Assembly: GCF_015529805.1 (NCBI RefSeq)
Contig: NZ_CP064654.1
Coordinates: 434,001-498,000, forward strand
Length of the DNA stretch: 64,000 nt
Direction of reading: 5' to 3'
Source: Qipengyuania soli
GTDB lineage: Bacteria; Pseudomonadota; Alphaproteobacteria; Sphingomonadales; Sphingomonadaceae
Each line of letters begins with the position of its first letter. Positions within the stretch are counted from its first letter, which is position 1. Under the pieces are notes generated by a model. It saw nothing but the letters and a program-made list of their open reading frames with translations, was not told the DNA's origin and did not search any database. The position numbers and the translations under genes were made by a program. Shown one piece after another: positions 28,410-39,282 of the stretch.

Positions 28410-29527
28410 GTATGCACCATGTGGTCGCGATGGACGACCGCGGCGCGGGGGGCGTAACCGAGCTTCTGAGCCTGCTGGTCCTGCTTGAGGCCGAGGATGC
28501 TGCGGCACTCGGCAGAGGTATATTCGACCAGGCCCTGGCCCAGCCTTTCGCCCTTGGGACCATGGATCGCGACGAGATCCCCGCGTGCGAACTCGCCCTC
28601 GATTTCAGTCATGCCGGCGGCGAGCAGGCTTGCGCCCTTTTCGAGCGCAGCGACACAGCCTGCGTCGACGGTCACGACACCGGAAGGGGCAAGGCGGCCG
28701 CCCAACCATGCCTTGCGTGCGCTGGCATCGGCCTGCGGCACGAACAGCGTGCCGACGGGCGTGTCTAGCGCCCGCGAAACCGGTGAGGGGTAGGTGCCGT
28801 TGACTATGGCGAGAGCGATCCCGGCGCGCTCGGCAATGCGCGCGGCCTGCAGCTTGGCCAGCATCCCGCCCGATCCGAGGCCGGACGAGGATTCCTCGCT
28901 GGCCATCGCGATGACTTCGGGTGTGACGCCCTCGACCCGCTCGATCAGTTCGGCTCCGGGCTGGCGTGGATCGCGATCGTAGAGGCCATCGACGTCGCTA
29001 AGCAGCATGACCGCATCGGCGCCTGCCGCCTGCGCAACGCGGGCGGCAAGACGGTCGTTGTCGCCGAAACGGATCTCCTCGGTCGCGACGCTGTCGTTTT
29101 CGTTGACCACGGGTATCGCACCCGCCTCGATCAGTCGCGCCAGCGTGGCCGAGGCGTTGAGATAGCGGCGGCGGTCCTCGAGGTCGCCGATGGTCACCAG
29201 CATCTGCGCGGCGGTGATGTCATGATGTCCCAGCGCATCGGACCACAGGCGCGCCAGTTCGACCTGTCCGACCGATGCTGCCGCCTGCGCGTCGGCAAGG
29301 CTCCCGCGCCCGCCCTTGGGCAGCTTCAGCTTCGCCGCGCCGAGCGCAATCGCGCCCGAGGATACGACAATCACTTCGGATGTCTTGCGCAATTCCGCGA
29401 TTTCCGCAGCCAGCGTCGCCAGCCATTCCGTGCGCGGCTTTCCCTGTTCGACAAGCAGTGCCGAGCCGACCTTGACGACAAGGCGGCGCGCGTGGCGCAG
29501 GTCGGGCAGGGCGGCAATGGCTTTCAC
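28406..29527 (-). CDS. proB: Glutamate 5-kinase
   Basis: ProB phosphorylates glutamate in the first step of proline synthesis. The 373-residue protein has the amino-acid kinase domain (LVVKVGSALLV, VSSGAIALG, PVVNENDSVA, FGDNDRLAARVA) and a C-terminal PUA domain of about 90 residues (from SGVVTVDAGCVAALEKG). GTG at 29527 with AGGG upstream is preferred; a TTG six codons earlier is also possible. It follows obg in the same direction with a gap of about 75 bases. Confidence 0.95.
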   Translation of the reverse strand: MKAIAALPDLRHARRLVVKVGSALLVEQGKPRTEWLATLAAEIAELRKTSEVIVVSSGAIALGAAKLKLPKGGRGSLADAQAAASVGQVELARLWSDALGHHDITAAQMLVTIGDLEDRRRYLNASATLARLIEAGAIPVVNENDSVATEEIRFGDNDRLAARVAQAAGADAVMLLSDVDGLYDRDPRQPGAELIERVEGVTPEVIAMASEESSSGLGSGGMLAKLQAARIAERAGIALAIVNGTYPSPVSRALDTPVGTLFVPQADASARKAWLGGRLAPSGVVTVDAGCVAALEKGASLLAAGMTEIEGEFARGDLVAIHGPKGERLGQGLVEYTSAECRSILGLKQDQQAQKLGYAPRAAVVHRDHMVHT

Positions 29528-29602
29528 GCTGCCAGCCCTAACCAAAGCAGTGGCTTGGCGAAAGTCGCCTTCGCTTGGGGAACGCCAAGCGCCGGTATCG
29601 GC

Positions 29603-30658
29603 TCAGATCGGCGACCAGTCGGGCGCCTCGCCCTCGTCCTCGACCTCGGCTTCCTGCGTTTCGGTCGCGGTGCGGTCGGGGAGGTAGCCGAGCACGGCAT
29701 CGAGAAGGTCCTCGATCCCCTCACCGGTGGCGCCGGAAACGCGGAACACCTTGGTCGCGCCTGCCGCGATCAGTTCCTCGGCGAAGCCTTCGCCCAGTTC
29801 CTTGTCGGCGAGGTCCATCTTGTTGAGCGCGACGAGCCGCGGCTTGTCGTCGAGGCCTGCGCCGTAGGCCTCGAGCTCGCCTTCGACGATCTGCATAGCC
29901 TCGACCGGATCGACGCCCGAAATGTCGATGAGGTGGATCAGCACGCGGCAGCGTTCGATATGGCCGAGGAACCGGTCACCGATGCCTGCGCCCTCGGCAG
30001 CGCCTTCGATCAGGCCGGGAATGTCGGCGAGGACGAACTCGCGTCCCTTGTGCGTCACCACGCCCAGCTTGGGCACGAGGGTGGTAAAGGCGTAAGCGCC
30101 GACCTTGGCCTTGGCGTTCGAAACCTGGTTTATGAAGGTCGACTTGCCCGCATTGGGCAGGCCCAGCAGGCCCACGTCGGCAAGCAGCTTCAGTCGCAGC
30201 CAGACCCACATCTCCTCGCCCGGCATGCCCGGCTGGTGCTGGCGCGGTGCGCGGTTGGTGCTGGTCTTGTAGCTGGCATTGCCGCGACCGCCCATGCCCC
30301 CTTCGAGGAAGACGATGCGCTGGCCTACCTCGGTGAAGTCCGCCAGCACCTCTTCCTTGTCTTCGGACAGGATTTGCGTGCCGACCGGGACCGGGATCAC
30401 CAGGTCGGGGGCGCCTGCGCCATAGCGGTCCTTGCCCATGCCATGGCCGCCGCGCTGCGCCTTGAAATGCTGTGAATAGCGAAAGTCGATGAGCGTGTTG
30501 AGGCCCTGGACAGCTTCGAACACGATATCGCCGCCCTTGCCGCCGTTGCCGCCGTCGGGTCCGCCGTATTCGACATACTTTTCGCGCCGGAAACTGACGG
30601 CGCCCGGGCCGCCTGCGCCCGATTTGAGATAGATCTTGGCCTGGTCGAGAAAATGCAT
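29603..30658 (-). CDS. obgE: ObgE/CgtA, ribosome-associated GTPase
   Basis: This essential GTPase acts in 50S ribosome maturation and stress control. The 351-residue protein shows the glycine-rich Obg fold (residues 1-158, with GGPDGGNGGKGGDIVF and GAPDLVIPVPVGT). The G domain follows, with G1 GLPNAGKST, G3 DIPG and G4 NKMD. The acidic C-terminal tail is as usual for proteobacteria. It is head-to-head with a small exported-protein gene controlled by an ECF-like promoter. Confidence 0.97.
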   Translation of the reverse strand: MHFLDQAKIYLKSGAGGPGAVSFRREKYVEYGGPDGGNGGKGGDIVFEAVQGLNTLIDFRYSQHFKAQRGGHGMGKDRYGAGAPDLVIPVPVGTQILSEDKEEVLADFTEVGQRIVFLEGGMGGRGNASYKTSTNRAPRQHQPGMPGEEMWVWLRLKLLADVGLLGLPNAGKSTFINQVSNAKAKVGAYAFTTLVPKLGVVTHKGREFVLADIPGLIEGAAEGAGIGDRFLGHIERCRVLIHLIDISGVDPVEAMQIVEGELEAYGAGLDDKPRLVALNKMDLADKELGEGFAEELIAAGATKVFRVSGATGEGIEDLLDAVLGYLPDRTATETQEAEVEDEGEAPDWSPI

Positions 30659-30718
30659 CGCGCGCCCCTAGTCGTTTTTGCCCGCAAAGGCGAGCGCGAG
30701 AAAAAATCCGCCTCGCAT

Positions 30719-30744
30719 GGATTAAATGCGCAGCGCCTTCCGTT
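30719..30744 (+). promoter_or_regulatory. ECF-type promoter, copy A
   Basis: GGATTAA at 30719-30725 and CCGTT at 30740-30744 are separated by 14 bases, 46 bases before the start of the small exported protein. The -35/-10 architecture (GGATT-N17-CGTT) is like that of group IV sigma factors. The CAT before GGATTAA is shared with copy C. The same element precedes two further genes within 3 kb, which is the main evidence that it is real. Confidence 0.6.
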
Positions 30745-30790
30745 CTCTTCCCAAGCCGGTCGCCAAGGGGCCTGGCGCAAGGAGGAACAC

Positions 30791-31135
30791 ATGAAATCCA
30801 ATGCAATCTGTATCGTTCTCGCACTCGTCTCGGCAGGTGCCGCAAGTGCTGCCGTCCCTATGCTGCTTGAAGAGCGTGTTGCGCGCGAGGAGGAAAAGCT
30901 GATCCTCGACCATCCCATCGCGGGGATCGAGAACAGCCTGTGGTTCGATTATCGCGTCGACGTGATCGAAGCGCAGAAGGAGCTGTCGAGCGACCTGCGC
31001 CGCGCGAGCGACATCGAGGACAAGCGCGACGCGTGGGAAGAATACGCCGTCGAACTCAAGAATGAACGTGAAGACTACATTCACGACATGGCGAAGCGCG
31101 GCTTCCGCCAGGGCAGTGTCACCATCATCGACTGA
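30791..31135 (+). CDS. Small exported helical protein, candidate ECF target
   Basis: This is a 114-residue protein of unknown function. A signal peptide (residues 1-20, ending ASA) is followed by an almost fully helical, highly charged mature part rich in Glu, Asp, Arg and Lys, with coiled-coil-like pattern (EERVAREEEKLILD, then IEAQKELSSDLRRASDIEDK). An AGGAGGA ribosome site lies 5 bases before the ATG. It has an ECF-type promoter and its own terminator. It sits next to the anti-sigma and sigma genes, which are in the opposite direction. Confidence 0.7.
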   Translation: MKSNAICIVLALVSAGAASAAVPMLLEERVAREEEKLILDHPIAGIENSLWFDYRVDVIEAQKELSSDLRRASDIEDKRDAWEEYAVELKNEREDYIHDMAKRGFRQGSVTIID

Positions 31136-31189
31136 CGATCCCGACCTCGATGCCGCCCAGCGTCCCTCATCGGGCGGCCGACACTGCCA

Positions 31190-31227
31190 GAAGGGCCGGA
31201 GAACTCCCCTCCGGCCCTTCCTTTTTT
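31190..31227 (+). terminator. Rho-independent terminator after the small exported-protein gene
   Basis: An 11-bp stem (GAAGGGCCGGA with TCCGGCCCTTC) around a 9-base loop is followed by CTTTTTT. It lies between two genes that point towards each other and, on the other strand, could also end the anti-sigma transcript less efficiently. Confidence 0.88.
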
Positions 31228-31247
31228 GCTGCGCTTCGAGTGCGACG

Positions 31248-31928
31248 TTAGCGCCAGCCTGAACTGCGCGCGGAGGCTTCCTGTTCTGCGTCGAGAGCGG
31301 GTCCTGTCGCCATTTCCTGCACCTGCTCGAAGATCGGATTAGTGCTGGCCTGGCGGTAGTCCGTGGAGCTGCCGGGGGAATATTCGACCTCGGCGCGATC
31401 CTGCCATCCATCGGTCGTCCGGCATGCGATCGCTGAGCGGCCCGGGACGCTGTAGGCGCGGCAGAACTCGTCCTCCCGATTGCGGAAGGAAAGAAGGATG
31501 CGTGTCTCGGCATCGCTCGGCTGTTCCGAAACCAGCTGGTCGTCGAGCGCGGCCAGGAGCTGCGGATCGAGCTCGTCCGACCCACCGCGCGGCAGGAACA
31601 GGGCCAAGGCCAGCGATGCGGCAAGCGCGGGCCCCGCATAGATCGCCCAGCGCGGCAGGCGGCGCCTGGCCTCCACCCGTTCGCGTGCAGCCGCGAAATC
31701 GACGACCTCCGCCTCTTTCGGCCTGAGCATTGCGGCGAGATGATCGGGCACCGGCTGCTCGGCAATAGGCGCGAAATGCGCCGCTAGCTGCGCCTTCAGC
31801 GCACGATGCGCCTCGACCTGTGCGGCGAGGTCCGGATCGGCTGCCACCGCAGCCGCCACCACTGCCTGCCGCTCGGGCGAAAGCTCGCCATCGGCGAAGG
31901 CGGCAATCTCTTCGCGGGAAATAGTCAT
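31248..31928 (-). CDS. Membrane anti-sigma factor
   Basis: This is a 226-residue single-span inner-membrane protein. The N-terminal cytoplasmic part (residues 1-85) resembles an anti-sigma domain (MTISREEIAAFADGELSPER). A span near 93-111 (AIYAGPALAASLALALFL) leads to a periplasmic domain with two cysteines (EFCRAY and AIACRT) that could sense redox or envelope state. It overlaps the sigma gene by 4 bases (ATGA), the usual arrangement for ECF sigma/anti-sigma pairs. No protease site is evident. Confidence 0.85.
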   Translation of the reverse strand: MTISREEIAAFADGELSPERQAVVAAAVAADPDLAAQVEAHRALKAQLAAHFAPIAEQPVPDHLAAMLRPKEAEVVDFAAARERVEARRRLPRWAIYAGPALAASLALALFLPRGGSDELDPQLLAALDDQLVSEQPSDAETRILLSFRNREDEFCRAYSVPGRSAIACRTTDGWQDRAEVEYSPGSSTDYRQASTNPIFEQVQEMATGPALDAEQEASARSSGWR

Positions 31929-32464
31929 TGGGCCTCTCCCAGCAATTCGAGCAGGGCATCGCGTCCGCGCACCAGGCGCGAGTTGAGCGTGCCCACCGGG
32001 CAGCCGACGATTTCCGCCGCTTCCTTGTAGGCATAGCCTTCGACCATGACGAGCAGCACGGCCTCGCGCTGGTCATCGGGCAGCTTCTGCATCGCCCGAT
32101 CGACCATCGAAAGCTCCACGGCATGCTCCTGCGCACCGTCACCTCCAACCGAGAGGCCTGCGTCCTCGTGCACGAAGGTCTCGCGGCGGCGGGTCGTCGC
32201 CCGGCCTTCGTCGATCCAGATATTGCGCATCACGCGGTACATCCAACTGTCGAGCCGCGTGCCTTCCTGCCACTTGGACCGGTTGGCGAGCGCGCGCTCG
32301 AGGCTCATCTGGCAAAGATCGTCACCGTCGGCAGGATTGCCGCACAGCCCGACCGCGAAACGTCGCAGCCGGGGCAAGAGTGCCAGCAGGTCCTGCTCGA
32401 ACGATGTGCTCAGCGTCTTTGCCTTCCGAGGGATTAAACGGATGACCCCGCCCGTTTCATCCAT
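31925..32464 (-). CDS. ECF (group IV) RNA polymerase sigma factor
   Basis: This is a 179-residue sigma factor with regions 2 and 4 only. Region 2 runs from FEQDLLALLPRLRRFAVG to the DDLCQMSLERAL and WMYRVMRNIWIDE blocks. Region 4 starts at LPDDQREAVLLVMVEGYAY and ends GTLNSRLVRGRDALL. It is co-transcribed with the membrane anti-sigma factor. Its 5' coding end overlaps, on the other strand, the promoter element in front of the S8 protease gene. No copy of that element reads towards the sigma gene, so autoregulation is not supported by the visible motif. Confidence 0.93.
   Translation of the reverse strand: MDETGGVIRLIPRKAKTLSTSFEQDLLALLPRLRRFAVGLCGNPADGDDLCQMSLERALANRSKWQEGTRLDSWMYRVMRNIWIDEGRATTRRRETFVHEDAGLSVGGDGAQEHAVELSMVDRAMQKLPDDQREAVLLVMVEGYAYKEAAEIVGCPVGTLNSRLVRGRDALLELLGEAQ
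32431..32456 (+). promoter_or_regulatory. ECF-type promoter, copy B (upstream of the S8 protease)
   Basis: GGATTAA at 32431-32437 and CCGTT at 32452-32456 have the same 14-base spacing as copies A and C, 40 bases before the protease ATG. The element lies inside the first codons of the divergent sigma factor gene, so both promoters and the sigma N-terminus share DNA. Confidence 0.6.
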
Positions 32465-32496
32465 GCTTAATCGCAGTTAGGTGAAAGGTCGAAGCG

Positions 32497-33702
32497 ATGA
32501 ACCGCATTATCCTCATCCCCGCGCTGGCCGCGAGCCTCGCCGCGCCGCTGGCCGCACAGGTCGCGCTGCCCGGAGTGTCGCTGCCGCGCGTGGGGGATGT
32601 GCTGCGTCCCGTTACCGATACGCTCGAGGACACGACGCGCGTTGCAACCGACCTCGCACGCGACCGCCTGCGGATGATCGACCGGCTGGTGCGCGCCAAT
32701 CGCGACATTATCGAACGCGACGCGGCGGGCGAACCCGCACGCAAGGGCGAATTGCTGGTGATGGATGCCGCAGCGGATCGACTGGTCGAGGCGGAGAAGC
32801 TTGGTTTTATCGTGATCGAGCGCGACGACATCGACGATCTTGGGATCAGTGTAACGCGTATGCGGACGCCGCGGGGCATGTCGCTCGCCAAGGCGCAGGC
32901 CTTGCTCTCCGCAACATTGCCCGATGCGATCATAAGCGCGGACAATCTTCACTTCCAGTCGGGTCGCGGCTCGGGCGTGGCGACGCAATTTGCGGCAGCC
33001 GCCGGCGGCACCGCCTCCTCTGCCGAAGTCGGGATGATCGACGGGGCTAGCGGGGCATCTGTCCCGGTGATCGCGACCAGGGGTTTTGCATCCGGTGCGC
33101 CTTATCCGAGCCACCATGGCAGCGCGATCGCATCGCTGCTGCGCTCGGCAGGCGTCGCAAGGGTTCGCGTGGCCGATGTCTACGGGACCGACAAGGCGGG
33201 CGGCAATGCACTGGCTATCGCGCGCGGCCTCGGCTGGCTGGTCGGGCAGGGCAGCGATGTCGTCACCATCAGCCTGGTCGGACCGCGCAATCCGGTGCTC
33301 GAACGCGCCATTGCCGCCGCTCGGCGCAAGGGCGTGGTGGTAGTCGCTGCGGTGGGCAATGACGGCCCTGCAGCGCCTCCGGCCTACCCGGCGAGCTACG
33401 ACGGCGTGGTTGCGGTCACGGCGGTCGACGGCAAGCGCCGCGCGCTGATCGAGGCGGGCAAGGCGCTGCATCTGGACTATGCCGCCCCGGGCGCGGATAT
33501 CTCCGGGCTCAATGCAAAGGGCAAGCGCATCACCTTGCGCGGAACGTCCTTTGCAACCCCTCTCGTGGCAGCGCGGATCGCCCGTGCGGGTACAGGCAAC
33601 TGGCGAGATGCCCTGGACAAGGAGGCGATCGACCTCGGCCGCAAGGGGGTGGACGACACCTATGGGCGCGGCCTCGTCTGCGCCCCCTGCAAGGGTCGCT
33701 AG
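32497..33702 (+). CDS. Exported subtilisin-like (S8) serine protease, candidate ECF target
   Basis: This is a 401-residue secreted protease. The signal peptide covers residues 1-20. A prodomain-like segment of about 140 residues follows, with the motif G-x3-R-x2-TDTL-x2-TTR-x-A at 33-50 that is also found in the exported protein at 33808. The catalytic domain shows Asp182 in GMIDG, His207 in HGSAIASLL, the oxyanion Asn288 in GND, and Ser351 in GTSFATPLVA. It is smaller than many S8 enzymes and ends with CAPCKGR. The divergent sigma/anti-sigma pair suggests stress-induced envelope proteolysis. Confidence 0.88.
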   Translation: MNRIILIPALAASLAAPLAAQVALPGVSLPRVGDVLRPVTDTLEDTTRVATDLARDRLRMIDRLVRANRDIIERDAAGEPARKGELLVMDAAADRLVEAEKLGFIVIERDDIDDLGISVTRMRTPRGMSLAKAQALLSATLPDAIISADNLHFQSGRGSGVATQFAAAAGGTASSAEVGMIDGASGASVPVIATRGFASGAPYPSHHGSAIASLLRSAGVARVRVADVYGTDKAGGNALAIARGLGWLVGQGSDVVTISLVGPRNPVLERAIAAARRKGVVVVAAVGNDGPAAPPAYPASYDGVVAVTAVDGKRRALIEAGKALHLDYAAPGADISGLNAKGKRITLRGTSFATPLVAARIARAGTGNWRDALDKEAIDLGRKGVDDTYGRGLVCAPCKGR

Positions 33703-33720
33703 AAAAATTTCGCCGGTCAT

Positions 33721-33746
33721 GGATTAAGCGTTAGGCGGCATCCGTT
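33721..33746 (+). promoter_or_regulatory. ECF-type promoter, copy C
   Basis: GGATTAA at 33721-33727 and CCGTT at 33742-33746 are separated by 14 bases, 61 bases before the next gene and 18 bases after the protease stop. The upstream CAT and the downstream TTCC/TTCGAAGC context resemble copy A. It allows the exported-protein gene to be expressed with or without the protease gene. Confidence 0.6.
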
Positions 33747-33807
33747 TTCCTTTCGAAGCGAGCGACAAACCCCCTTCCGGCGCTCGCGGACAAGAAAGGA
33801 TAAACAC

Positions 33808-34671
33808 ATGAAAAAGCTTCTTCTTGCCGCTTCGGCTCTCACTCTCTTCGCCGCCCCGCAGGCGCACGCCCAGCTGCTTTCGGGCTCGGGCCTTGGCTCG
33901 ATCACCGGCAGCGCAGCCGGCGCCATCGGCCCCATGGCGCGCATGCCGACTGACACGCTGCGTTCGACCACGCGCGGTGCCGTGCGCGGCGATGCGAAGA
34001 CCCGCGGCAGCCAGAAGGTCGACCGCAAGTCGGGTTCGATTGCAGTCGACCGCAGCATCGACACCGGTCTTGAGGCCACCACCAGTCAGCTTCTCGATAC
34101 GCCTGCAGGTTCGGCCGGCGGCTCGGCCTCGGGGAGCGGCAGCGCCTCGGGTTCGGGCAGCGCGGATGCGCAGTTGATCGGCACCGACGCGGTGCGCGGC
34201 GCGGCGCAGGATGTCGTCGGTCGCGGCCGTGACACGGCCAGCAATGTGCGCAACCTTGCCACTCCCGCCGTTGGCGCGGCGCGTGACCGTGCGACTGGCG
34301 CAGTCGGCCAGGCAGGTTCGCTGACCGGCGCGGCCCAGGGCGCAGGCTCCGCCGCAGGTTCGGCCTCGGGCATGCTCGGCAATGATTTCCTGGCTGTTGC
34401 CGGTAGCGGTGCCGCCGAGGGCGAGGGTGCCTTCGCGGTCGCTCCGGGCATGCCGGTGATGCTGCCGAGCGGCGAGAAGCTGGGCGAAGTGCGCCAGATT
34501 GTCGCCGACAAGCGCGGCCAGGTGCAGGAGGTTCTCGTCGAGGCGCGCGATCGTACCATGACGCTTCCTGCCGCCAATCTTACCGGCTCGGCCAACGCGC
34601 TGGTGATGGGCGAGGGGACGCTGACCGCGGAGCAGCCCGCCGAAGAGCCGGCGGAGGAATCTGCCGAGTAA
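33808..34671 (+). CDS. Exported Gly/Ala/Ser-rich protein with PRC-barrel-like end, candidate ECF target
   Basis: This is a 287-residue protein of unknown function. The signal peptide ends AHA at residue 21. Residues 41-58 carry G-x3-R-x2-TDTL-x2-TTR-x-A, matched in the S8 protease. Residues 85-200 are low-complexity Gly/Ser/Ala with a GSASGSGSASGSGSA tract. The C-terminal part (GMPVMLPSGEKLGEV, then VLVEARDRTMTLPA) looks like a PRC-barrel-type beta domain, and the end is acidic. It has its own ECF-type promoter and a terminator. It may be a structural or anchoring envelope protein. Confidence 0.7.
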   Translation: MKKLLLAASALTLFAAPQAHAQLLSGSGLGSITGSAAGAIGPMARMPTDTLRSTTRGAVRGDAKTRGSQKVDRKSGSIAVDRSIDTGLEATTSQLLDTPAGSAGGSASGSGSASGSGSADAQLIGTDAVRGAAQDVVGRGRDTASNVRNLATPAVGAARDRATGAVGQAGSLTGAAQGAGSAAGSASGMLGNDFLAVAGSGAAEGEGAFAVAPGMPVMLPSGEKLGEVRQIVADKRGQVQEVLVEARDRTMTLPAANLTGSANALVMGEGTLTAEQPAEEPAEESAE

Positions 34672-34689
34672 GCGCAATCGTCGCGAGGA

Positions 34690-34726
34690 AAGGGCGGTCG
34701 GACTTTGGCTCGGCCGCCCTTTTCTT
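34690..34726 (+). terminator. Rho-independent terminator after the Gly/Ala-rich protein gene
   Basis: An 11-bp stem (AAGGGCGGTCG with CGGCCGCCCTT, one G-U pair) around a 10-base loop leads into TTTTCTT. Confidence 0.85.
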
Positions 34727-34754
34727 GTGCGGGTGGCGGGCGTATCTGGCCGGA

Positions 34755-35030
34755 ATGCAACTCGACGACCTGCTCCGCCGCTATTTCGCCACCGACGACC
34801 CGCACTCGATTGGACCTGCGGCGCTATCGGCAGGGATCGAACACTGCCTCGTCGACCTCGGACTGGAGAAGGACCCCGGCAAGCGCTTCGCCCTGTGGTC
34901 GTTGCTCTTCATGCTTGGGGCGGCACCCGATCTCGACGTCGCGTTCGAGAACGAGGAAGAACGCGAGGCCGCGCGGAACTTCATGGAACTGCTGGAAGCC
35001 GGCGAGAGCAACCTTCGCGAAGGAGGTTAG
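34755..35030 (+). CDS. Small conserved cytoplasmic protein
   Basis: This is a 91-residue soluble protein of unknown function. It starts MQLDDLLRRYFATDDP and shows an FALWSLLFMLGAAPDLDVAF block; the composition is acidic and helical. No signal peptide or membrane segment is seen. The ATG at 34755 was chosen over an earlier ATG in the same frame because the terminator stem would otherwise sit close to the coding start. It converges on the ExeM-type nuclease gene. Confidence 0.6.
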   Translation: MQLDDLLRRYFATDDPHSIGPAALSAGIEHCLVDLGLEKDPGKRFALWSLLFMLGAAPDLDVAFENEEEREAARNFMELLEAGESNLREGG

Positions 35031-35057
35031 GGCGGCTGCGTCAATCGCAACCGCCCT
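35029..35057. terminator. Bidirectional hairpin between converging genes
   Basis: AGGGCGG (35029-35035) pairs with CCGCCCT (35051-35057), with an additional GCG/CGC pair inside. It sits in the 34-base gap between the small protein gene and the nuclease gene. T-runs are weak, so efficiency is uncertain. Confidence 0.5.
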
Positions 35058-35064
35058 GACACCG

Positions 35065-38000
35065 TCAGGCGAAATCGAAGCCGTTCACCGGGTATAGGGC
35101 GTCCCAGTTGGCATGCGGGACGTGAATTCCCACATCGGCAGCACCCGGACCGACGAGCGCCTCGTCAGAGAAGGCAAGTGCTTCCATCCCGACGCTCGCT
35201 GCAGGCTGTGCGAACTGGACCGCGGCAGCAACTGCGGTTGTCGTAGCGCCTAGCACGGTGCCGATCAGCTGCCCGTCGGCATAGATTTCGGTGTCGGCAC
35301 CCGACTGGAAGTAGGAGATCGTCCTCATGCCGATCCCGGCAATGAGGATGGTATCCGGACCGTTGCCGAAGTCTGCGATCATGTCATCATCCCCGATCTC
35401 GCTATCGGCGTGAAGGACGAAGGTATCGGGTCCAAGACCGCCGATAAGAAGGTCACTGCCCGCTCCGCCATCAAGGACGTCGGGGCCCTTGCCACCGTCG
35501 AGGATATCGTTGCCCGCGCCACCGAACAGCTCGTCTGCGCCGTTGCCGCCGAACAGCTGGTCATTACCGCCAAGGCCGAAGATGACGTCCGCACCATTGC
35601 CGCCGTCGATGCGATCGTTGCCGTCATTGCCGGACAAGTGATCCACTCCGTTACCGCCGGTAATCACCTGGATGCCGATGTTGAAACGGCCGAGGACAGG
35701 ATCGTGATCGGACACGGCCATGCCCGTGGTCGAATTGCGGTGCACGATATCGAGGATCGCCCCGTCCATCATCCCGCCGGTGGCGAAGATGTGGTCGATC
35801 TGCTGCGCATTGCCCTCGAAGATGGTCGAATAGCGCTCCTCGGCTTCCAGCAGGAACGACAGGTTGTTGAGGATGACGTCCGAACCGTCGCTGATGGTGC
35901 CACCGGCGTAGTTCAGCTGTCCGGTAAGGATCTGCAGCGGCTCCTCGAACTGGAAGTCGTTGAAGTCCCCTGCGACGACCACATTGGCGAGCGGGTCGGC
36001 TGCCAGCAAGGCATCGACATAGGCATTGACCGCCGCCGCCTGTGCCGCGCGGGTTAGAGAGCCCGCCTGGATCGGCGGTTGGTCGGCGGTGTAGCTAGTG
36101 TCCGAGCCGATCATCGAAGTGAAGTGGTTGCCGATGACCGTCACTTCCTCCCCGTTGAAGCTGAACGTTGCACCAAGCGGAGCACGCGCGAATGCTTCGT
36201 CATCGATGGTGAAGACCGACGCCGGGTCGAGATCGACAGTGTCGGCGCGATAAAGGAACGCCACGCGGATGTTGCCGCCCGGCTGACCGCCGGTCTGCCC
36301 GTCTTCGATGAAGGGATTGTCGAGGACGTAGTACTGAACTCCGGTCTCGGCATAGATCAGGTCTGCGAGCATCTGCAGGGTCAGCGCTGCACTCACCGTG
36401 CCGTCATTGGCCGAGCCGCTGTCGTCCTGCACCTCTTCGAGCACGACGATATCGGGTGCGTTCATGGCAACGCCGATGTCGAATGCAATCGCGTCGAAAC
36501 GACCGTCGGCAACGTCGGTGTCGCCATCGGCATCGTTTATGTCGAGGTTGAGGACGTTGTAGGTGGCAATCGTCAGCTGGTTTGCAGCGCCGGTCAGAAC
36601 GGAAGTTTCGCCGATGTTGGTGGTGACGAGAGCGACGCTGACTTCTTCCGTCGGCCGGATCTCGAAATTGCCGAAGGCATAGTCGACGATCCCCGTCACG
36701 CTCGACAATACGGTGCCCGGGCCCACTTGCGGAGTGTCAAAGGTCACGCCGTTGAGGGTATAGCCGCCGTCGATCTGGATACGCTCTGGATTGAAGTCGG
36801 AACCCGCGCCGGTGTCGAAATAGCCCAGATCGCCTTCACCGCCCTGGATGACCACCAGGCCGCTGTCAGCCACGCTCGTCGCGGACAGGTTACCTGCGCC
36901 ATCGCTGGCTACGGTCCACAATTCGCCGAAGTTGTTGGTGCTGTCGACTGCGACAGGGTTCTGGACCGTGACCAGCATGCCTTCGAGGCTTTCCCAGAAG
37001 TCGATGCCGTCATTGGCAGAGTCGTAGGTGCCGAGCAGGTCGTCATCGATGATTTCGGTCGGCGGCGTGATGCCGTCCGGTCCTATCAACACTGCAGTGG
37101 GCAGGCTATTGCCCGTGCTGTCGACCGTAACTGTCGGGCTGGTCAGTTCGGTGATGGTGAGGTTGCTTTCATCCCCGCCGGGCAGGAATTCCGTGACCGT
37201 GCCACTGACAGTGACGCCATCGCCCGCAACCACCGTGGGGGTGGAACCGGTGAAGACAAAGATTGCGTCCGACGTTGCGGAATTGCCGTCACCGTCCGCG
37301 TCCTGCAGGTAGAAGCCGGTCGCGGAAACGGCGGTTACGATGCCGGTCGTGGTGACTGAATTGCCCACGAAAATCGACTGGTGGCCTTCCCCCTGGATCT
37401 CGCCGATCTGGAGGTTGAGCGCCTCGTCGTTGACGATAGTGCCAGTGGCCGAACCGTCGCGGATGTCGGACCCGCCGGTCGGATTGGTGAGTTCCACGGT
37501 GAAGAACTCGCTCGGTTCGGGAAGGATGTCCCCGGTTACGCTGACGGTAATCGTCGCCGTTGTCTGACCGGCTGCGAAAGTGACCGTTCCGCTGAGCGGC
37601 CCGGACAAGTCGCTGGTGCCGGCAGATTGCGCGCCATTGCCGAGCATGACCTGGTAGTCGACCGATACGGCGCCTTCGCTGCCCCCGGTACGACGGACGG
37701 TGAACGTCATGTCCGTGGTCCCGGTGTCACCTTCGACAACACTGCTGTCGCCAATGTAGAAGCTGCCGTTGGGATTGGGGGGTATGAAATCCTGTCCGCC
37801 ATTGGGCGCACCGAAACTGTCGCCGACGGGGCCGGTCCAGCTGAAGTCTTCGTAGCTCGAGCCCGCACCCACCAGCTGGATGGAAAGCCCTGCCGGACCG
37901 CCGGTTTCTTCGACGCCGACGTCAATGCTGGTCATGCCCGCCGCCGGACCGGAAGTTGCCAGCATCGTGCCTTCATAGGAAAGGAACTGGATGACGTTGC

Positions 38001-39282
38001 CGCCCGCATCGACCAGTGCGAAACCGTCGGGCGCGCCGTTCTGGATATTGGTCGCATCGACCGATACCGTGCCGAAGCCATCGTCCTGATCGGCGATGAC
38101 GCCACTCAAAGCGATGGTCTGGTAAGGCACCCCGCCGTTACCGTTGTAGAGCACGATGCTCCAGCCGGTCAGGTCGGTTCCCGCTGCACCGGCAATCTCG
38201 ATCCGTTCGCCCACGTCGGCGCCGGAGTTGTCATAGTGGAACTCGTTGAAGAACACATTCGCGGCTGCGGGCGGCGGAGGCGGAGGCGGAGGTGGCGGGG
38301 GAGGAGCATCGCCGAAGGTCTGCCCGGTATTGATGGAGCCGCGCGTTTCGGCTGCGGGTCCGGACCAGGTGAAGTCAACCGGAGCGGTTCCGTTGCCCGT
38401 AAGTTGCAGTGAATATCCGACCGGCGTTACCCCGTCCTCGGCAATGCCGATGTCGGTACTGGTCATCCCGGCTGCAGGACCGTCGATAGCGACGAATTCG
38501 CCTTCATAGCTGAGGAACTGGAGCACCGTGCCATCGGGAGCCACGAGCGCAATGGCATCGGGCGCACCGTTCTGGAGGCCGTTCGCAGGCAGGTTGAACG
38601 CGACCGCGCCGTACCCATTGCCCTCGTCGTCGACCGTGCCCGTCAGGGAGATGGTGTTGTAAACCATACCGTTGCCGCCGTTGTAGAGCACCAGCGAGTA
38701 ATTGGTCAGGTCGAGCCCTGCCGTGCCTGCCACTTCGATGAACTCGCCGGTATCGGCACCAGCGTTGTCGTAATGGAATTCGTTGATGAACAGCACGTCC
38801 TCGACGATTTCCTGACCGGTGTTGGCAGCCCCCGAAGTGTTCGCCTGGGCGGCAGACCAGGTGAAGTCGCCGTAAGTCGATCCGCTGCCGGTGAGCTGGA
38901 GCGAATGTCCGGCAGGGACGCCGCTGAGTTCGGCGACGCCGATGTCGGTGCTGGTCAATCCGTCGGCAGCGCCGCCGATGGCAGTAAAGCTGCCCTCGTA
39001 GCTCAGGAACATGACTACCGAGCCGCCCGCGTCGACCAGGGCGATGCCATCGGGTGCACCGTTCTGAAGGCCGGTAGCAGCCACCGAAACGAAAGTGTCG
39101 GATCCACTCAACGCGATCGTGCCATACGGCGCACCGTTCGAACCGTTGTAGAGAACGACCGTCCAGCCGGTCAGGTCGGCACCGTCGAGGTTGGCGATTT
39201 CAATGAACTCGCCCGTATCCGCCCCGTCGTTGTCGTAGTGGAATTCGTTGATGAAGATGCGCGATGCCGGATTGGCGACCAT
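35065..39282 (-). CDS. Large secreted ExeM/NucH-type endonuclease with lamin-tail, Calx-beta and RTX repeats
   Basis: This is a 1405-residue mosaic protein. Three lamin-tail-like domains (each starting FINEFHYDN or FFNEFHYDN) cover about residues 6-155, 165-315 and 342-490, with a run of 12 prolines near 327-338. A Calx-beta domain lies near 503-615 and an OB-like nuclease domain from about 622. The endonuclease/exonuclease/phosphatase domain spans about 904-1200 (IATYNVLNLD, VVVAGDFNDF, SDHDPVLGRF). RTX repeats GGxGxDxLxGG occupy 1207-1287, then a C-terminal 120 residues. There is no N-terminal signal peptide, so type I secretion via the C-terminus is expected. It probably degrades extracellular DNA. 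Confidence 0.85.
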   Translation of the reverse strand: MVANPASRIFINEFHYDNDGADTGEFIEIANLDGADLTGWTVVLYNGSNGAPYGTIALSGSDTFVSVAATGLQNGAPDGIALVDAGGSVVMFLSYEGSFTAIGGAADGLTSTDIGVAELSGVPAGHSLQLTGSGSTYGDFTWSAAQANTSGAANTGQEIVEDVLFINEFHYDNAGADTGEFIEVAGTAGLDLTNYSLVLYNGGNGMVYNTISLTGTVDDEGNGYGAVAFNLPANGLQNGAPDAIALVAPDGTVLQFLSYEGEFVAIDGPAAGMTSTDIGIAEDGVTPVGYSLQLTGNGTAPVDFTWSGPAAETRGSINTGQTFGDAPPPPPPPPPPPPAAANVFFNEFHYDNSGADVGERIEIAGAAGTDLTGWSIVLYNGNGGVPYQTIALSGVIADQDDGFGTVSVDATNIQNGAPDGFALVDAGGNVIQFLSYEGTMLATSGPAAGMTSIDVGVEETGGPAGLSIQLVGAGSSYEDFSWTGPVGDSFGAPNGGQDFIPPNPNGSFYIGDSSVVEGDTGTTDMTFTVRRTGGSEGAVSVDYQVMLGNGAQSAGTSDLSGPLSGTVTFAAGQTTATITVSVTGDILPEPSEFFTVELTNPTGGSDIRDGSATGTIVNDEALNLQIGEIQGEGHQSIFVGNSVTTTGIVTAVSATGFYLQDADGDGNSATSDAIFVFTGSTPTVVAGDGVTVSGTVTEFLPGGDESNLTITELTSPTVTVDSTGNSLPTAVLIGPDGITPPTEIIDDDLLGTYDSANDGIDFWESLEGMLVTVQNPVAVDSTNNFGELWTVASDGAGNLSATSVADSGLVVIQGGEGDLGYFDTGAGSDFNPERIQIDGGYTLNGVTFDTPQVGPGTVLSSVTGIVDYAFGNFEIRPTEEVSVALVTTNIGETSVLTGAANQLTIATYNVLNLDINDADGDTDVADGRFDAIAFDIGVAMNAPDIVVLEEVQDDSGSANDGTVSAALTLQMLADLIYAETGVQYYVLDNPFIEDGQTGGQPGGNIRVAFLYRADTVDLDPASVFTIDDEAFARAPLGATFSFNGEEVTVIGNHFTSMIGSDTSYTADQPPIQAGSLTRAAQAAAVNAYVDALLAADPLANVVVAGDFNDFQFEEPLQILTGQLNYAGGTISDGSDVILNNLSFLLEAEERYSTIFEGNAQQIDHIFATGGMMDGAILDIVHRNSTTGMAVSDHDPVLGRFNIGIQVITGGNGVDHLSGNDGNDRIDGGNGADVIFGLGGNDQLFGGNGADELFGGAGNDILDGGKGPDVLDGGAGSDLLIGGLGPDTFVLHADSEIGDDDMIADFGNGPDTILIAGIGMRTISYFQSGADTEIYADGQLIGTVLGATTTAVAAAVQFAQPAASVGMEALAFSDEALVGPGAADVGIHVPHANWDALYPVNGFDFA

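Follow-up and report, generated by a model that had tools for sequence, protein, structure and literature searches.

Which genes are served by an extracytoplasmic function (ECF) sigma factor encoded beside its anti-sigma factor and three putatively exported proteins, and from which promoters, is the question raised by a five-gene cassette at positions 30719-34671 of a 64,000-nucleotide stretch of the Qipengyuania soli genome (hereafter, the window). The cassette comprises genes encoding a 114-residue protein, an anti-sigma factor, an ECF sigma factor, an S8 protease and a Gly/Ala-rich protein with a weak PRC-barrel match (hereafter, PRC-like). These identities, including the helical nature of the first protein, agree with those given in an original prediction, and the catalytic triad of the protease is intact; signal peptides and the transmembrane helix were judged by eye, without a predictor. 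On sequence grounds, the locus is very probably a self-contained, autoregulated ECF sigma factor cassette of the RpoE6-like (ECF26) kind with four promoters of its own, two of which are superposed (Table 1).

The original prediction had pointed to three identically spaced copies of the element GGATTAA-N14-CCGTT on the forward strand, 41-62 bases ahead of the genes encoding the three exported proteins. All three are exact and the distances were close, with 46, 40 and 61 bases separating the last base of CCGTT from the ATG of the 114-residue, S8 and PRC-like protein genes, respectively. Nor is the element common at random positions. In a scan of the 2,910,044-bp genome, it was found only three times, always within the cassette, with the reversed control yielding no match, while 100 dinucleotide-preserving shuffles of the window, which holds all three, contained none. 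When up to two mismatches were allowed in a genome-wide scan for further members, 77 matches were obtained, as compared to 78 for the reversed control, such that only near-exact copies are informative. Four sites in the genome differ from the element by a single mismatch. One is the sigma-side promoter considered below; each of the remaining three falls within a long stop-to-stop frame (of 437, 608 and 574 codons), and these three look like chance matches and were not retained as members. An A/T tract stands ahead of many of the single promoters and, in many loci, close to that of the PRC-like gene, as noted by eye but not counted.

The distribution of the five genes was considered in 61 genomes, namely, 37 from the genus, that of Q. 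soli among them, and a further 24 from elsewhere in the order, with close relatives being defined by E < 1e-150 for the S8 protease, at least 81% identity for the sigma factor and E < 1e-59 for the anti-sigma factor. This co-occurrence check, called for by the original prediction, revealed inheritance to be all-or-none, with close relatives of all five genes appearing in the same 15 of the 61 genomes. Gene order and strands are identical in the 14 other cassette genomes, and obg lies inside the flank examined in four of the 15 cassette loci, that of the window included (some flanks are short). S8, sigma and anti-sigma genes also gave more distant matches, for example as a second set in genome G027, and genome G024 contains one partial additional anti-sigma match. 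In the second, distant set of G027 (locus L126, contig C2), all three genes lie on the same strand and so are not divergent.

Scored as exact GGATTAA-N15-CGTT, the element occurs 44 times in the 15 cassette genomes and twice in the 22 congeners that lack the cassette; the reversed pattern gave a single match in the 37 genomes of the genus. The 44 copies precede the genes encoding the S8 protease (15), the PRC-like protein (15), the 114-residue protein (11) and duplicates of the PRC-like protein (2), with one found elsewhere. As such, 43 of the 44 lie within the cassette or precede a duplicate of the PRC-like gene, these duplicates being 3.7 kb away in G032 and, still on the same contig, ~90 kb away in G027. 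Across the genus, promoter spacing is conserved exactly while the spacer sequence drifts. Exact spacing, near-confinement to congeners bearing the sigma factor and the presence of the element before both duplicates all argue for the earlier proposal that these elements serve as promoters of the local sigma factor. In one species, an additional copy of the motif is found beside the cassette, upstream of a response-regulator-like frame (L063:6703-6728, corresponding to G030:C6:38202-38227, minus strand).

Could the general stress sigma factor EcfG, and not the local sigma factor, use these promoters? The two share the CGTT -10 box, and 5uxx, which we take to be an EcfG-type sigma factor, was the best-scoring solved sigma factor by sequence. 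Nonetheless, such usage is highly improbable, since the -35 box of the cassette, GGATTAA, is without AAC and since the motif nearly vanishes in congeners without the local sigma factor (two copies in 22 genomes, the EcfG status of which was unexamined). Canonical EcfG promoters are described as having a -35 box with AAC and a -10 box with CGTT (PMC8103513), and the RpoE6 and RpoE2 regulons are reported to overlap in Sinorhizobium meliloti (PMC6180224). EcfG (ECF15), likewise alphaproteobacterial, is described as acting with a NepR/PhyR partner switch and an AAC-containing -35, whereas the cassette has a membrane anti-sigma factor and GGATKAA.

In counting three promoters, the original prediction is supported as regards those three and missed a fourth, the S8 element being also half of a mirror that faces the sigma and anti-sigma genes. 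Specifically, the S8 element forms one side of a near-palindrome, GGATNNAACG-N12-CGTTNNATCC, in which a 10-bp inverted repeat surrounds a 12-bp gap. Read on the minus strand, positions 32437-32462 give GGATGAA-N15-CGTT, facing the sigma/anti-sigma pair and offset by 6 bp from the S8 promoter. First-order resampling of the surrounding 170-bp region of the window generated the mirror pattern 0 times in 200,000. The predicted promoter of the sigma gene thus matches those of its putative targets, as is the case in an autoregulated ECF system.

A search based on an S8 alignment yielded 47 named loci (48 with the window) from Qipengyuania, Erythrobacter, Pelagerythrobacter, Croceicoccus, Altererythrobacter, Tsuneonella, Novosphingobium, Sphingobium and others. 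The sigma and anti-sigma genes are divergent from the S8 gene in all 47, the loci having been chosen through S8, with the PRC-like gene being found in 45 (E up to 0.01) and the 114-residue protein gene in 20, several loci ending at contig ends. The mirror was present in 47 of the 48 loci, with an offset of 6 bp in each of the 47. Before the sigma gene, minus-strand GGATKAA-N15-CGTT appears in 45 of the 48, with GGATGGA in the other three, and in three Croceicoccus loci neither strand departs from the consensus. When 37 contexts differing by more than 12% were compared, 11 of the 12 positions at the centre of the mirror carried less than 1 bit, as did most of the flanking positions lying beyond about -9 to +40; given that the letters of the mirror are constant by selection of the pattern, it is the count of 47 of 48 and the contrast with centre and flanks that are informative. 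Moreover, the additional letters of the palindrome are seldom seen in exact single promoters of the same loci (ACG after GGATTAA in 5/60 and ATCC after CGTT in 0/60). In other words, these letters occur where a second promoter would have to be read back.

Used as a bare DNA pattern, the mirror matched 80 of 396 genomes of the order, as compared to one for the reversed control, and five of 385 genomes of the class, three of these outside the order. At every one of the 34 pattern loci inspected (30 from the order, three from other orders of the class and that of Q. soli), sigma and anti-sigma genes were found on one side and an S8 gene on the other. Eight plasmid records contain an S8 relative at E <= 1e-30, and all five plasmid loci examined have the sigma/anti-sigma/S8 module together with the mirror, one of the plasmids being typed as conjugative. 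The complete modules at these loci (L254-L258) are carried by Novosphingobium and Sphingomonas plasmids. Elsewhere, in one genome of the family (G386), the mirror promoter is found four times, on four contigs, the same sequence appearing in one or the other orientation.

Because dimeric regulators bind inverted repeats of this shape (10-bp arms, 12-bp gap), the palindrome could be the operator of a dimeric transcription factor, with its likeness to ECF promoters being secondary. This is very unlikely, as the promoters of the 114-residue and PRC-like protein genes have the same boxes and spacing without the palindrome, as the cassette encodes no regulator besides the sigma/anti-sigma pair, and as no regulator is common to the genes annotated around the five plasmid copies.

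Assuming a promoter in each direction, the two sides of the mirror are not always alike. At position 5 of the -35 box, the S8 and sigma sides of the 47 mirror loci read T/G in 29 (that of the window among them), G/G in 11, T/T in three, G/T in three and A/T in one. The G on the sigma side facing the T on the S8 side in those 29 suggests a weaker promoter, as would be expected if only the S8 direction worked and the sigma and anti-sigma genes were constitutively transcribed from another, housekeeping-driven start; indeed, S. meliloti RpoE3, of the same group, is described as apparently not self-activating (PMC6180224). Still, one-way use of the mirror is unlikely, given that 47 of the 48 loci retain GGAT..AACG and CGTT on the side of the sigma gene, that polarity is reversed in three loci (T on the sigma side, G on the S8 side) and that three others present T on both. 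In addition, no E. coli-type sigma-70 site was detected in the 30600-34800 region, other promoter types being outside that scan.

Several observations count against a four-promoter cassette organised about the mirror. Within the genus, the promoter of the 114-residue protein gene is exact in 11 of the 15 cassette genomes and has one mismatch in the other four. The promoter of the PRC-like gene, exact in all 15, is exact in 26 of the 48 wider loci and within two mismatches in 45 (one mismatch in L182 and none in L200), leaving three without it, namely, L185 and L190 (three mismatches) and L199 (none found). One of the 48 loci (L201) is without the S8 half of the mirror, the sigma half being kept, and the stricter GGATKAA appears on both sides of the mirror in 41 of 48. 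Outside the genus, the one-way motif occurs at chance level (16 matches in 24 genomes versus 17 for the reversed pattern), and so its diagnostic value there rests on the mirror. Lastly, in S. meliloti, RpoE6 functions although no mirror promoter is present.

That system is also the closest described relative of the cassette, for which the original prediction had known of no system of such composition. In S. meliloti, rpoE6 is divergent from the serine protease gene SMa0142, an arrangement widely conserved in ECF26, and overexpression of RpoE6, the role of which is given as undefined, raised 40 genes, among them SMa0142 and the gene of its own anti-sigma factor, ecfR6, with autogenous control being argued (PMC6180224). 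The window sigma factor is 44.6% identical over 89% to the sigma factor at 79.0 kb of pSymA (NC_003037.1), which we identify as RpoE6 on the grounds that this stretch contains the published promoter strings of rpoE6 and SMa0142. With the best queries, this pSymA stretch gave identities of 46% for the sigma factor, 33% for the S8 protease and 31% for the anti-sigma factor. The two systems share a probable membrane anti-sigma factor with a Cys pair at the corresponding place (by eye) and a divergent S8 protease, the gene of which responds to sigma overexpression in S. meliloti. There, unlike in the cassette, the promoters of the sigma and protease genes are adjacent, facing one another but not superposed, the -35 is of the GGAATA type rather than GGATKAA, the protease is without a C-terminal CxxC, and no relative of the PRC-like or helical 114-residue protein was detectable in the 8.4 kb examined. 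Likewise, the ECF26 target promoter (-35 GGAATA, -10 GT) differs from that seen here (-35 GGATKAA, -10 CGTT), while the divergent serine protease characteristic of ECF26 is present at all 47 named loci, found via S8, and at all 34 pattern loci. GGAATAA-type sites are found before the sigma gene in more distant S8/sigma sets (G038 and G050), and in Aminobacter, where gene order is as in S. meliloti, such a site precedes the S8 gene. The pairing of genes is, then, known; the cassette is set apart by its mirror promoter, its GGATKAA box, the further exported proteins and a regulon of its own.

Bacteria also contain symmetric bidirectional promoters of the housekeeping sigma factor, in which one stretch of DNA starts transcription both ways and a symmetric -10 is shared. 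In the mirror, by contrast, each -10 overlaps the -35 of the opposite direction, and the sigma factor is of the ECF type. No superposed palindromic ECF promoter is named in the titles and abstract openings of the literature searched.

Taken as an autoregulated cassette, the locus would operate as follows. The membrane anti-sigma factor would hold the sigma factor until a signal, probably acting on the periplasmic domain, inactivates the anti-sigma factor. Freed sigma factor would then bring RNA polymerase to four GGATKAA-N15-CGTT promoters within ~3 kb, i.e., those of the 114-residue, S8 and PRC-like protein genes and its own, where the cassette sigma factor presumably uses the predicted start sites. 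Two of the four would be superposed in one 32-bp near-palindrome, to which polymerase could bind either way; because each -10 overlaps the end of the -35 of the other direction, occupancy would probably be exclusive, with one direction served at a time. With one-way occupancy, each initiation would yield either sigma/anti-sigma or protease, coupling the two outputs. The protease and the two other exported proteins, which may protect or remodel the envelope, would be made in this manner, and the sigma and anti-sigma factors would be renewed from the same mirror site. As put forward in the original prediction, envelope stress may be the stimulus and the protease may be the effector. In its working, the scheme resembles E. 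coli RpoE/RseA with DegS/RseP, as that system is described, in terms of the membrane anti-sigma factor, periplasmic signal and stress output, and differs in that the regulon would here be restricted to its own cassette. More tentatively, the mirror might be a single-site splitter, with the ratio of sigma/anti-sigma to protease being set by the DNA, constant at any sigma level and biased by the T or G at -35 position 5, and the Cys pair of the anti-sigma factor and the CxxC of the protease might together form an envelope thiol-disulfide checkpoint.

The protease contains the Asp-His-Ser triad and oxyanion Asn of S8 peptidases: in an alignment of 86 sequences, D182, H207 and N288 are present in all and S351 in 85 (one gap), and each Cys of the C-terminal CxxC is found in 82. 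The 86-sequence sets used here overlap, with some genomes being present in more than one collection. In a second cassette copy of Q. huizhouensis (L200), the best single-frame S8 match spans residues 1-296 only, and the sigma and anti-sigma genes and promoters persist. Rather than, or besides, being an effector, the protease could take part in signalling by cutting the anti-sigma factor, creating a positive loop, a possibility to which we assign the lesser weight. In its favour, protease, sigma and anti-sigma genes occur together in 47/47 named and 34/34 pattern loci, sets chosen through S8 or the mirror, and the protease looks secreted while the anti-sigma factor has a periplasmic domain. In the one characterised relative, however, the targets include the protease gene, and the mechanism of activation is called hypothetical (PMC6180224).

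The sigma factor is a member of the ECF sigma factors (group IV of sigma-70), its 179-residue frame containing only the Sigma70_r2 and Sigma70_r4 domains (PF04542, 7.3e-11; PF08281, 2.5e-16). The most likely start is CTG 32413, with GAAGG followed by CTG being kept in the 15 genus genomes (by eye), and a CTG start is also seen in many of the wider loci. ATG 32464 is a less likely start, since it lies at the promoter edge and upstream indels break the frame. In L187, TTG is found at the start position; in L172, CTA is found there, with ATG two codons upstream (both by eye), and more distant loci present other arrangements. The weak CTG start could hold the level of the sigma factor below that of the anti-sigma factor.

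In the anti-sigma factor, a cytoplasmic domain is probably followed by a transmembrane helix (by eye) and a periplasmic sheet domain, the layout expected of an ECF26 anti-sigma factor. Alignment and model agree on this layout, although the model is of low confidence at the helix. HxxxCxxC, the signature of zinc-binding Class I anti-sigma factors, is absent from the N-terminal domain in the 15 anti-sigma factors aligned; members without zinc are described as common in that class (PMC7406223). The periplasmic Cys pair, C156 and C169, is present in 86 of 86 sequences. In an AlphaFold2 (AF2) model calculated with 15 sequences (predicted local distance difference test (pLDDT) score 73.7; predicted template modelling score 0.46; low confidence at 72-78 and 88-118), the pair falls on the neighbouring strands 155-161 and 164-171, where, by strand register, the two residues would be about opposite one another. 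Foldseek returned no match to this model at E <= 0.001.

As for the other exported proteins, all 16 of the PRC-like members considered gave a PRC match with an E-value of at most 0.1, the best being 5.6e-5, and that of the window protein (E 0.009) being below the curated cut-off. The 114-residue protein has no Pfam match above cut-off. Its AF2 model (pLDDT 76.7) is a helical hairpin with helices at 26-40, 48-71 and 75-102, for which Foldseek found nothing in the PDB at E <= 0.001; CnrX- and ZraP-like helical hairpins appeared among the matches only at E above 2 and were not used.

Table 1. Positions of cassette genes, predicted promoters and RNA structures in the window.
Feature	Position	Strand	Basis or remark
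114-residue exported helical-hairpin protein, no known family	30791..31135	+	Open reading frame
Anti-sigma factor, one transmembrane helix (by eye)	31248..31928	-	Below-cut-off ChrR/RseA-type matches; alignment; AF2 model
ECF sigma factor	31925..32413	-	Probable CTG start 32413; overlaps anti-sigma gene by 4 nt
Secreted S8 (subtilisin-type) protease	32497..33702	+	PF00082, 5.4e-15; PDB subtilisins
Gly/Ala-rich exported protein, weak C-terminal PRC-barrel match (PRC-like)	33808..34671	+	PRC match, 0.009
Predicted ECF promoter of 114-residue protein gene, GGATTAA-N15-CGTT	30719..30744	+	A/T tract at 30701-30707
Predicted ECF promoter of S8 gene	32431..32456	+	Exact GGATTAA-N14-CCGTT
Predicted mirror promoter, GGATTAAACG-N12-CGTTTCATCC	32431..32462		S8 promoter 32431-32456 (+) superposed on sigma promoter 32437-32462 (-)
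Predicted ECF promoter of PRC-like gene, 18 bp past S8 stop	33721..33746	+	Exact GGATTAA-N14-CCGTT
AAAAATTT tract, UP-element-like, immediately upstream of PRC-like promoter	33703..33710	+	A/T tract, by eye
Terminator-like stem, 12 pairs then CTTTTTT	31190..31220		Between convergent 114-residue protein and anti-sigma genes
5'-leader hairpin of PRC-like gene	33758..33787	+	8 pairs

Among RNA structures, terminator-like sites in the 30600-34800 region number four, as compared to 2.6 expected in shuffles, the stem listed in Table 1 being the longest. In the leader hairpin of the PRC-like gene, four of the eight pairs show compensatory changes, a number reached in 26 of 500 shuffles; 95.4% of cells are paired versus 86.6% in shuffles, and 21 cells are compensatory versus 5.2 in shuffles, none of 500 reaching this value. 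For the leader of the 114-residue protein gene, hairpin-like repeats were seen by eye and RNAalifold returned no consensus pairs. No Rfam match at the gathering threshold was obtained in 29500-35500, and PADLOC gave no match.

In the window, the cassette is flanked by an obg-like gene (by eye) on one side and a gene encoding a large protein on the other, with a short 90-codon frame following the five genes. Positions 35065-39282 of the minus strand encode a 1405-residue protein in which segments are repeated at the N-terminus, the middle is nuclease-like and Gly/Asp-rich repeats of the calcium-binding type are present (by eye).

Should the mirror fire both ways, it would represent a natural two-way ECF switch and a test bed for how polymerase chooses direction. 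Sphingomonads conserve its geometry, as do three genomes belonging to two further families of alphaproteobacteria. As the pattern alone led to the module in each of the 34 loci inspected, it can be used for annotation. With the cassette, RpoE6-type systems would gain a minimal form, consisting of four promoters and five genes in ~4 kb, with related modules being carried on plasmids.

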